Source: Holosporales bacterium
GTDB lineage: Bacteria; Pseudomonadota; Alphaproteobacteria; RUG11792
Assembly: GCA_031275915.1 (NCBI GenBank)
Contig: JAISOC010000057.1
Location: 1-13,359, forward strand
Length of the DNA: 13,359 nucleotides
Reading direction: 5' to 3'
Both the position numbers and the translations under genes were made by a program. Shown one piece after another: positions 3,097 through 13,359 of the stretch. The notes under the pieces were generated by a model that saw only the letters and a program-made list of their open reading frames with translations, was not told the origin of the DNA and ran no database searches. Each line of letters begins with the position of its first letter. The stretch's first letter is position 1.

Positions 3097-3327
3097 CTAG
3101 ACTGTACCCTCTGCAGGCCAACAGGCATCTGCAGCCGGCCAACAGGCATCCGCTGCGGGCCAACAAGCATCAGCAGCAGGCCAGCACTTAGAAGCCGGCC
3201 AGCAGGCATCAGCCGCAGGCCAACAAGCTTCGGAAGTTGGCCAACAGCTACCAGCGTTGGCAGTGGGCCAACATACGCCCAGAGCCACCAATCCAGCAGC
3301 AACCACTCTCAAAACAGAAAATGCCAT
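3097..3327 (-). CDS. Putative secreted Cys-Trp-Pro heptapeptide-repeat protein
   Basis: Small 76-residue protein of unknown function. A perfect AGGAGG (3334-3339) lies 6 nt before the ATG, the clearest ribosome site in this part of the window, and a promoter candidate lies upstream. Residues 1-25 form a Sec-like signal with a possible cut after TANA. The rest is almost entirely repeats starting with CWP: CWPTSEA, CWPAADA, CWPASK, three more CWPAADA, then a CWPAEGTV tail, giving eight CWP motifs and eight cysteines. The four full CWPAADA units differ only at third codon positions, which supports this frame and selection on the peptide. The gene is markedly richer in G+C than its neighbours, suggesting transfer or local expansion. 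It runs convergent with psd. Envelope component, metal or disulfide-linked peptide, and toxin-like peptide all remain possible. Confidence 0.72.
   Translation of the reverse strand: MAFSVLRVVAAGLVALGVCWPTANAGSCWPTSEACWPAADACWPASKCWPAADACWPAADACWPAADACWPAEGTV
3100..3273 (-). repeat. Tandem 21-bp repeats encoding CWPAADA
   Basis: Eight units each begin with the codons for Cys-Trp-Pro. Most are 21 bp: 3124-3144, 3145-3165, 3166-3186, 3205-3225 and 3226-3246. One is 18 bp (3187-3204), the first is 27 bp (3247-3273), and the last runs into the gene's 3' end. Because the unit length is a multiple of three, other frames on both strands stay open and produce spurious long frames here. Confidence 0.85.
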
Positions 3328-3361
3328 AATGCACCTCCTAAAAAAACCACTCAGGATGAGG

Positions 3362-3390
3362 ATAATATGCTGACAACTCCGTTTCAACAA
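3362..3390 (-). promoter_or_regulatory. Promoter candidate for the CWP-repeat gene
   Basis: On the minus strand TTGTTG (3390-3385) and TATTAT (3367-3362) are separated by 17 nt. The -10 matches five of six consensus bases and the -35 only three. It predicts a leader of roughly 30 nt carrying the AGGAGG site. Confidence 0.4.
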
Positions 3391-10814: not shown

Positions 10815-10847
10815 GGAAATAAGATGGAAAGCTTGAGGAGAAATTAA

Positions 10848-10922
10848 ATGATTGAAAGAATCGTGTTTGAAGCAGGAAAGAATAATAATATTACCCCCCC
10901 CCCCCCCCCCCCCACGAAATAA
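10848..10922 (+). CDS. 24-codon OFF-state frame from the best start codon
   Basis: This ATG has the best translation signal of the region: GAGGAG 7 nt upstream. The frame reads MIERIVFEAGKNNNIT, then six prolines from the C-run, then Thr-Lys and a stop at 10920. It is one base out of phase with the BspA-like frame. It is best read as the truncated product of a phase-variable gene rather than as a separate gene. Confidence 0.5.
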   Translation: MIERIVFEAGKNNNITPPPPPPTK

Positions 10923-12552
10923 TATAACAATAATCAAAGCTGGCAGGATCATATCTTGCTTGGCGGTTGGAGTTCTCTTATCTACATCAAGTGTAAGAGG
11001 AACTGGAGCATCAGGGTTAATAGTAGAGGATCTTGATCTGCTTAGTGAAAGTGCAAAATTAGTTGAAGTGGCAGATACTCTTGCGGAGCTGATAAAAGGC
11101 TTGCCGCAGTACGATCTTGGTACAATTTTGGGGAATCTGTTACTAAATACACACGAAGTAGTAGTGACAAATGGAGTCGCAAAGCAGGGGTATACACTAG
11201 CCGATTTTAAGGCGATAGCAAGTGATCTAACTAATGGTGCAACTGGTGCAACTTTCAGAGACTGGATACAAATAATAGAGATCAATGGAAGACAAATAAA
11301 TTTATCACTAACAGATAGCACTGGTGGACGTTTCCAGAACACACACACAATAAAAGCAAACGACACAATATCGCTGGCAGCCGATGCTTTTGGTACAGTA
11401 TATGAAGTTCCGTACTTTTCAGCACTACATCAAGTATGTCTCCCAAATGTAAACGCAATAGGAGATGATGCATTTGCTGGGACTGCAATACAAAGACTCG
11501 AATTGCTGTCGTATACGGGTGGAGAGCAGAGCGATGGAATGACTCCGTTTGGGAATATGAATCAGCTGGAAGAACTGTGTGCTCCAAAACTTTTTATTGG
11601 GGCAGGTGGAGCAACAATCATCAGTGCAAATTCGCCTTCATCAGCAGAAGGAAAACCAGGATTCAGCAAAATCACAATTAAAGGTTTTGCTGGAGATACT
11701 CCAACATTGGGTTCTAACAGTTACATAGATGGTGTACAAGCTTTATTTAGAGATCAGACAAATCTATTTGAACTTAAGCTTATAGATGGTTGCCCGGCTG
11801 TGCTTCCAGAAAATACTTTTAATGGATGCGAGAGACTTAGACATGTAGATCTCAGCAATGTGAAAGAGCTGAAAGGAGGGGCGCTGGTAGACACCAGGAA
11901 TTTGGAGAATCAAACGCTGCACTTGCATGGGATGAAAGGCAAGACTCTTACAAACAGCTCGATTAAGGAGCTGGTGTTAGAAGTCCATGAGCAGGATAGT
12001 GATAACATTTCGCCATACTGGACAATGATGGTTGAAGGTGCTTTTGCAGGTTCGCACATCGAGAGTTTAACGCTCTCGTCACAATATCCTTTAAACATTT
12101 GTTGGGCAGAATATGATTCTGGAACAACAGTGCATACCTATCATAGTACACTTTCTGGCATGGCGTGTCTCAGGAGATTGCATGTTAAAAGCGTGTTGTA
12201 TTCAGCAGTTTCGAGCGATCCTGACGGTACAGGCCCATACCATGGAAGAGGATCCTACAGCCTAATAACGGGAGGATGGTTTTTTGGCGAATCTGCAGAA
12301 TGGCAGCCGTATCATATAGATCTCACTTTAGAAGGAGGTGCACTAAACATTGAAAATGGCGGCTATGATGTTGCAACACGGAGATGGCGTATAGAAACAG
12401 ACGTAGATGTTGATCCGACCCCAGTATACACAATAAATGAGAAAGGTCGGGCATTGATATTCAAAACTGTCACTGTGATTGGAGGACCGCTCACTAATGT
12501 TGTTGCACACACAGGCAACGGTTATAACGTCGTTGTTGATAGTAGTACTTAA
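10852..12552 (+). CDS. Secreted BspA-type leucine-rich repeat protein, phase-variable
   Basis: The frame is open from a TTG at 10852, but the natural start is probably ATG 10848, out of frame at the present C20 length. After the proline run, residues 22-50 form a Sec signal (basic RNNITIIKAGR, then a hydrophobic core). The mature protein begins near TGASGLIVEDL. BspA-type (LRR_5) units are visible as VNAIGDDAFAGTAIQRLEL (200-218), VLPENTFNGCERLRHVDL (317-334) and VEGAFAGSHIESLTL (394-408). The C-terminus from about 500 is not LRR-like and shows no sorting motif or anchor. BspA repeats mediate adhesion and host interaction in other bacteria and protists; surface or exported binding protein is inference. 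It diverges from the ABC ATPase gene and precedes another secreted-protein gene. If TTG 10852 is used, a low-level product could be made without any switch. Confidence 0.8.
   Translation: MKESCLKQERIIILPPPPPPPRNNITIIKAGRIISCLAVGVLLSTSSVRGTGASGLIVEDLDLLSESAKLVEVADTLAELIKGLPQYDLGTILGNLLLNTHEVVVTNGVAKQGYTLADFKAIASDLTNGATGATFRDWIQIIEINGRQINLSLTDSTGGRFQNTHTIKANDTISLAADAFGTVYEVPYFSALHQVCLPNVNAIGDDAFAGTAIQRLELLSYTGGEQSDGMTPFGNMNQLEELCAPKLFIGAGGATIISANSPSSAEGKPGFSKITIKGFAGDTPTLGSNSYIDGVQALFRDQTNLFELKLIDGCPAVLPENTFNGCERLRHVDLSNVKELKGGALVDTRNLENQTLHLHGMKGKTLTNSSIKELVLEVHEQDSDNISPYWTMMVEGAFAGSHIESLTLSSQYPLNICWAEYDSGTTVHTYHSTLSGMACLRRLHVKSVLYSAVSSDPDGTGPYHGRGSYSLITGGWFFGESAEWQPYHIDLTLEGGALNIENGGYDVATRRWRIETDVDVDPTPVYTINEKGRALIFKTVTVIGGPLTNVVAHTGNGYNVVVDSST
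10894..10913 (+). repeat. Homopolymeric C20 tract, likely phase-variation switch
   Basis: There are twenty consecutive C residues in an otherwise A+T-rich neighbourhood, 46 nt after the ATG with the strong Shine-Dalgarno. At C20 the ATG frame stops at 10920; at C21 it would also stop within a few codons. At C19 or C22 it joins the long BspA-like frame, giving six or seven prolines before the signal peptide. Slipped-strand mispairing at such runs is an established on/off mechanism in other bacteria. The exact length in an assembly can be a consensus error. Confidence 0.85.
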
Positions 12553-12690: not shown

Positions 12691-13359
12691 ATGATTAAAT
12701 TTAAGACATTGTGGGCTGGTTTAACAGCATGGGCATCTTTCAGTGTGTGTAGTGCTTCAGGGCTGTTGGAACAAATGGAAATAGCAAGTGATGGCCAAAG
12801 AGCTTTTTTAACGGTAGAGGAAATTAAAGATTATGTTGGAAATGCAAAAAATGAGATAAAAACTGAAGTTAATAATGCATCTTACAACATAAACAATGCT
12901 GTTGAAGGAGTACAAACAGCAGCATATGCTTTAAATAATACAGTTACTGAAATAGATGGAGAAATCGATAAACTAACCATAACAATTGGTGACATAAACA
13001 CAGCGGCTGGTAGCATAACTTCAGGAGTCACCACGCTACAAGAAACTATCAATAACTTAGACACGACCGTCAATTACTTAGACGATGTAATTAAAGATCA
13101 TCTTGACGGTGTCCAAACGGCAATCGAAACAAAAATCGATGGTGCAGTCACTACTATAGGAGGACAGATTGGTGGTGCAGTCGGTACCATAGAATACAAG
13201 GTTGATGGTGCGGTCACTGCTATAAATGCAGCGACTGGAACAGCAGTTGGTGGTGCAGTTGATACTATAAATGCAGCGACTGGAACAGCAGTTGATGGTG
13301 CAGTTGATACTATAAATGCAGCGACTGGAACAGCAGTTGGTGGTGCAGTCACTGCTATA
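12691..13359 (+). CDS. Secreted 15-residue-repeat stalk-like protein, 3' end missing
   Basis: Partial gene: 223 codons are visible with no stop before the window edge. GGAGG (12681-12685) lies 5 nt before the ATG. MIKFKTLWAGLTAWASFSVCSASG forms a signal peptide with a likely cut after the Ala of CSA. Residues from about 25 to 150 are polar and helical, with spaced Val, Ile and Leu (for example GVTTLQETINNLDTTVNYL), suggesting a coiled coil. From about 150 on, GAV motifs recur and resolve into exact 15-residue units of the type INAATGTAVGGAVDT. Such pentadecads fit a right-handed coiled coil, as in trimeric autotransporter stalks, but no YadA anchor can be seen because the gene is cut. The mature start ASGLLEQ echoes the ASGLIVED of the preceding LRR protein, hinting at a shared export class. 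Function is unknown. Confidence 0.82.
   Translation, partial: MIKFKTLWAGLTAWASFSVCSASGLLEQMEIASDGQRAFLTVEEIKDYVGNAKNEIKTEVNNASYNINNAVEGVQTAAYALNNTVTEIDGEIDKLTITIGDINTAAGSITSGVTTLQETINNLDTTVNYLDDVIKDHLDGVQTAIETKIDGAVTTIGGQIGGAVGTIEYKVDGAVTAINAATGTAVGGAVDTINAATGTAVDGAVDTINAATGTAVGGAVTAI
13222..13359 (+). repeat. Tandem 45-bp repeats, continuing past the window
   Basis: Three head-to-tail units (13222-13266, 13267-13311, 13312-13356) encode INAATGTAVGGAVDT and close variants. They are nearly identical at the DNA level, with a few changes such as GGT/GAT, in contrast to the diverged 21-bp units at 3100-3273. This points to recent duplication and likely copy-number variation. Confidence 0.9.

Follow-up and report, generated by a model that had tools for sequence, protein, structure and literature searches.

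A poly-C tract at the start of a Holosporales gene for a secreted-type LRR protein: a predicted phase-variation switch

A run of 20 cytosines lies within the coding region for a secreted-type LRR protein in the window analyzed here (the whole stretch of 13,359 nucleotides from a Holosporales bacterium), and we consider it very probable that this run is a contingency (phase-variation) tract that acts as a predicted switch. It is not an isolated oddity but belongs to a large set of such runs, and it is probably functional in phase variation. The tract, its relation to the reading frames, its occurrence beyond chance, the placement of such runs at gene starts in many relatives, and the length differences among close paralogues are established directly. 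According to the proposed mechanism, replication slippage (slipped-strand mispairing) would alter the length of the tract, one length class in three would join the strong start codon ATG 10848 to the long reading frame, and the protein would then be made by some cells of a population and not by others. The protein may be exposed at the surface, where the purpose of the switch would be to vary what a eukaryotic host or a phage meets.

The C20 tract and its reading frames

The features of the start region, all on the plus strand, are as follows.

10835..10840, plus strand: SD-like GAGGAG, 7 nt from ATG 10848 and 11 nt from TTG 10852 (direct reading)
10848..10850, plus strand: ATG start, whose register at C20 is not that of the long frame
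10852..10854, plus strand: TTG, a possible weak alternative start that at C20 shares the register of the long frame
10894..10913, plus strand: C20 homopolymer, the proposed phase-variation tract, proline when read (exact count, chance calculation)
10915..11019, plus strand: signal-peptide-like stretch, basic and then hydrophobic, that opens the post-tract frame (by eye and hydropathy)
10915..12552, plus strand: open frame of 545 codons with a weak BspA-type LRR match (frame reading, Pfam)

An earlier note on this DNA had placed GAGGAG 7 nt ahead of ATG 10848 and had counted exactly 20 C, and direct reading confirms these coordinates. The frames of ATG 10848 and TTG 10852 are both open up to the run. 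Past it, the ATG frame meets a TAA at 10920-10922, two codons beyond C20, and the third frame lasts only three codons, while the 545-codon frame, one base off the ATG register, continues to its stop at 12552. The one-base offset that the earlier note had described, and its arithmetic of repair (loss of one C or gain of two), are thus borne out by frame reading. The TTG that it had named as another possible start is likewise present and in frame with the long frame at C20; translation from it could work at this length, so the OFF state is only a candidate. The proline linker that it had called unusual is what a C tract encodes, just as a G tract encodes glycine.

The window has a G+C content of 37.6%, and its longest other runs are A9, T8, C6, and G5. 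The expected number of C or G runs of at least 20 in 727,082 bases is 4e-9 with independent bases and 3e-8 with a first-order chain, or about 1e-8 per genome; the run is not a chance occurrence, as had been claimed. The window tract thereby combines a simple repeat far beyond chance length with a site in the 5′ coding part, where its length sets the frame. The length of 20 is an assembly consensus from which the true length may differ somewhat.

Directly after the tract, the frame opens with RNNITIIKAGRIISCLAVGVLLSTSS, which is signal-peptide-like by eye and hydropathy. The first in-frame ATG, GTG, or TTG after the run is codon 16, within the hydrophobic part, and because the stretch from the run to the hydrophobic core contains no such start, translation of the window gene most likely begins upstream and crosses the run. 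Paralogues on two other contigs (C5 and C85) each carry C23 before the same kind of signal-peptide-like stretch, with 585 and 542 open codons after the run in the two genes and a first common in-frame start at codon 16 (C5) or codon 46 (C85). The nucleotide match between the C5 paralogue and the window gene (94% over 185 nt) starts at the tract; upstream of the tract the two do not match, over the only 88 nt that the C5 contig offers there, and the upstream parts of the paralogues are in general cut by contig ends or unalignable. A search for an orthologue or a second strain in which tract lengths could be compared found, among 8000 proteins scored, the window protein itself and the paralogue on C5 but nothing else.

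The match of LRR_5 (PF13306) to the window protein is weak (E 1.4e-4, 22.2 bits, under the curated 27.7), whereas the C85 paralogue, which is 30% identical to the window protein over residues 102-447, scores above the curated cut-off (E 7e-9, 36.1 bits). For the paralogue on C5, no Pfam model matches at E 0.01. The label BspA-type LRR for the window protein therefore comes mainly from the C85 paralogue. The earlier description of a secreted LRR protein of more than 500 codons stands in its length and its signal-peptide-like start; its LRR part depends mainly on the paralogue, the protein's own match falling below the cut-off.

The neighbors on the contig are of housekeeping type, namely, MurC, phosphatidylserine decarboxylase, TruB, DnaE, NuoH, and an ABC ATPase, although many of the models matched for the decarboxylase, NuoH, and ABC protein labels scored below their own cut-offs. 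A 21-nt tandem repeat of 6.6 copies occupies 3113-3247 in a minus-strand open reading frame (ORF; 3097-3390) and reads as CWPAADA-like repeats. The next gene after the tract gene, from 12658 on, encodes a secreted-type coiled-coil-like protein and is cut by the contig end; it has 33- and 45-nt tandem repeats at 13138-13359, no NCBIfam match, and coiled-coil Pfam matches that are all below cut-off.

Long C and G runs in the genome and the order

The earlier note had suggested a search of the genome for other runs of at least 9 C or G at the 5′ ends of surface genes. The genome has 18 runs of that length that are preceded by another base, the window run included, and the addition of contig-start runs on C55 and C81 gives 20 runs at 19 places. 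Eleven of these (G9 to G16) follow the leader MKKLLLSIAII or a near-identical version of it, and a G15 on C105 stands behind a related leader. Three runs belong to the poly-C genes (window, C5, and C85), those on C26 and C86 lie at contig ends beside frames that are LRR-like or related, and the run on C95, read by eye, encodes glycine inside an ABC-ATPase-like frame. Contig C55 opens with 58 C (L084), and the end of C86 has a G12 directly beside a C9 (L090); both are likely assembly or read artefacts.

Two of the leader genes, L082 (G14) and L083 (G13), are 95% identical over 312 nt spanning the run. LRR_5 matches L082 (1.2e-18) and L094 (1.3e-17) clearly and L081 (0.0026) weakly. Among 8000 candidates scored, L082 has 227 relatives at 1e-5, with LRR_5 proteins in the 120 listed, and its sequence matches the solved LRR chains 4fs7 (best), 4gt6, and 6mlx. 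Long frames follow the run in 4 of the 11 leader copies (L077, L082, L083, and L093), three of them reaching the contig end, and contig ends truncate three further copies (L091, L080, and L088). In L079, L085, L086, and L087 (contigs C7, C75, C79, and C80), all three frames stop within 20 codons past the run; these stops count against the switch reading. A common downstream sequence, absent from the LRR genes, is found in L079, L085, L086, and L091.

The nearest named relatives by dnaE are the Holosporales MAGs Cd354_bin23 (55%) and Gsp477_bin11 (56%), which fits the alphaproteobacterial-symbiont context that the earlier note had assumed. The order, sampled as one family of 35 genomes, holds 139 C or G runs of at least 12, which amounts to 4.7 per Mb versus 0.34 per Mb in 141 other alphaproteobacteria, using rounded genome sizes for the relatives. 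(The genome-wide counts required another base before the run and so miss contig-start runs.) The 141 other genomes have 138 such runs, of which 51 are in just two, G124 and G103. Within the order, the richest genomes are G043 (42 runs in ~0.9 Mb), G008 (23), the window's own genome (14), G003 (14), and G005 (9); at least one run is present in 21 of the 35, and the 14 that have none count against the switch reading. A mismatch-repair defect was rejected as an explanation of the tracts, as mutS (PF00488) was found in 38 of 40 genomes searched, the own genome among them.

Among the internal runs that could be classified, 52 of 80 stand at the 5′ end of an ORF at least 100 codons long, compared to 1030 of 6275 random positions (16%). 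The Fisher probability of 8e-22 assumes that paralogues are independent of one another, an assumption that does not hold here; leaving out G043 gives 30 of 53. Stretches were taken for the own-genome runs and for part of the relatives' runs, many of those near contig ends being omitted, and the classified set excludes runs less than 250 nt from the stretch start or less than 310 nt from the stretch end and runs with repeated flanks; the control positions lie in those stretches too, no closer than 200 nt to any run. An SD-like motif and ATG precede 37 of the 52 runs, versus 189 of the 1030 random positions at 5′ ends, and the base on the coding strand is G in 44 of the 52 and C in 8. A hydrophobic stretch (mean of at least 1.8 over ten residues, a threshold chosen afterwards) stands before or just after the run in 38 of 44 runs with SD and ATG by hand count; the three leader genes of G003 fail this threshold and lack a clear hydrophobic signal segment, which counts against the switch reading. 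The remaining 28 runs, many of them in G008, are within ORFs (6), at 3′ ends (2), or neither (20). These 28 and the non-independence of paralogues count against the switch reading.

The layout across the order would be a ribosome-binding site, an ATG, a short leader, a long G/C run ahead of or within a signal-peptide-like stretch, and then a diverse protein. The switch reading is supported because many runs across the order sit at the 5′ ends of ORFs and their lengths differ behind near-identical flanks. In this way the runs in the genome and the order, their 5′-end placement, and the differences in length between paralogues all favor the earlier note's proposal that tract length acts as a switch.

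Outside the order, three tract-bearing genomes from other families supplied 20 stretches (13 from G103, 4 from G139, and 3 from G171), and the placement found in the order did not recur there. Eight were listed with 80 or more codons downstream, and in one of these eight the tract followed an SD and ATG, 31 nt from the contig end. G103, from another alphaproteobacterial family (L274-L286), has 22 C runs of at least 12 in 2.2 Mb, many of which lie close to the end of a contig. Its loci L274 and L282 both have MLHFCYKY, then a C13/C12 run, and then long frames.

Shared leaders and competing explanations

Leaders repeat within a species and differ between species, as with MKKLLLSIAII in the own genome, MRGIQSIP in G003, and MKIFNKFANKNVGKPGLTRR in G043. 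The run lies 61-63 nt past the ATG in 23 of the 24 tract-bearing leader copies of G043, mostly just past an arginine pair and ahead of the hydrophobic stretch, and its length ranges from 10 to 21 across all 24. Identity among the 24 copies is 0.61-0.91 between 60 nt upstream of the ATG and the run, going from 0.91 to 0.78 before the run and from 0.36 to ~0.27 after it, and is near random beyond 30 nt past the run. Four further leader copies lack a run of at least 8. In two of these, L257 and L263, five or six G stand in the same place, as a shortened tract would leave, and it is possible that these are fixed forms of formerly switching genes. The 29 proteins encoded after the run in G043 form blastp groups of 15, 4, and 3, with 7 singletons.

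This pattern raises the rather doubtful possibility that the tract is a junction as well as a frame switch, at which a short conserved module of upstream region, SD, and leader could be recombined with diverse mature genes. The G043 copies are alike before the run and dissimilar after it, 226 of 247 nucleotide matches between them end at the run, and the match of the window gene to the paralogue on C5 starts at the tract (with the 88-nt limit given above). Elsewhere, however, matches that end at the run are rare (2 of 13 in the own genome, 0 of 16 in G003, 1 of 4 in G005, and 0 of 2 in G008), the same pattern would arise if the leader were conserved and the mature part diverged fast, and 15 of the 29 G043 proteins still form one blastp group. 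If the junction reading were true, on/off switching would be coupled to antigen swapping in genomes of ~0.5-1.1 Mb. Graded expression is a refinement compatible with the main reading, in which tract length would pick the strong start (ATG), the weak start (TTG), or none, with C20 as the weak state. The two start codons do share one SD in different frames, both open, with the TTG in register at C20, but a TTG is a poor start and this one is 11 nt from the SD rather than 7; we regard such grading as unlikely.

We consider the other readings all improbable. Long homopolymers can provoke slippage, and RNA polymerase or ribosomes slipping on the run could yield a fixed mixture of products at any tract length; by itself, this would leave the length differences among near-identical copies unexplained and seems quite improbable as a full account. 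A decaying gene in which the run is a fixed frameshift would be consistent with the out-of-register C20, with a search of 8000 proteins that found only the protein itself and one paralogue, and with the leader copies in the own genome that have no long frame behind the run. Yet the long frames are open in the window gene and in both paralogues, and it is at the tract that register is lost for 35 of the 44 runs with SD and ATG (9 are in register, where one third would be expected; p 0.08), so that we hold decay to be very improbable. Least credible of all is that poly-G read tails or misassembly created or lengthened the run. The 58-C contig start, the G12/C9 pair, and several sibling tracts less than 250 nt from contig ends would suit an artefact, but the window run is internal to its contig, with flanks of 10,893 and 2,446 nt and coding sequence after it, and the placement of internal runs is far from random. 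A read-tail artefact was accordingly rejected for the window run and retained for contig-start runs such as that of C55. Promoter-spacing control was also rejected, as 6 promoter-like sites near the gene compare with 5.4 expected and the tract lies downstream of the SD and ATG.

Known systems and biological meaning

The predicted frame switch has close parallels in Neisseria gonorrhoeae (PMC5354566). There, pilC undergoes on/off frameshifts through a G run in its signal-peptide region, which resembles the present case in being a homopolymer frame switch located in that region. It differs in comprising two genes, as opposed to many tract genes per genome here, in an unrelated lineage, and in that PilC is a pilus-associated protein and not an LRR or shared-leader family. 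The same source describes opa, in which up to 12 surface genes are each frame-switched by a repeat in the leader peptide (PMC5354566). As a multigene family with a leader repeat, opa may be likened to the 11 leader copies of the own genome and the 24 of G043, but its repeats are CTCTT pentamers (PMC5354566) and not a C homopolymer, and homology is not expected, which makes this an analogy and not a membership.

The earlier note knew of no such switch driving a BspA-like protein in an alphaproteobacterial symbiont. For this lineage the open-access literature searched likewise gave none, but PMC5476646 describes BspA-like LRR surface proteins with read-counted repeat-length variants, and a predicted switch, in "Ca. 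Mycoplasma girerdii," which co-occurs with Trichomonas vaginalis. That mollicute, from another phylum, uses CA repeats in the BspA example and G8 for a methyltransferase gene (PMC5476646). The open-access literature, with subscription journals mostly outside it, gave no report of phase variation or homopolymeric tracts in Holosporales, of slipped-strand phase variation in termite symbionts, or of homopolymeric phase-variable surface proteins in Rickettsiales; for poly-G phase variation in alphaproteobacterial endosymbionts it gave capsule work only. The mechanism is known; within that literature, the lineage, the scale, and the design of a shared leader plus tract appear to be new.

If the switch reading is true, reduced-genome alphaproteobacteria that are kin of known endosymbionts keep up to 42 long G/C runs (in G043), many of them at or inside the leaders of families of secreted-type proteins. 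They would also have converged with the Trichomonas-associated mycoplasma on phase-variable BspA-like proteins (PMC5476646). For a host-dependent bacterium, such tracts would provide a testable route to vary its surface in the face of a protist or animal host or of phages.
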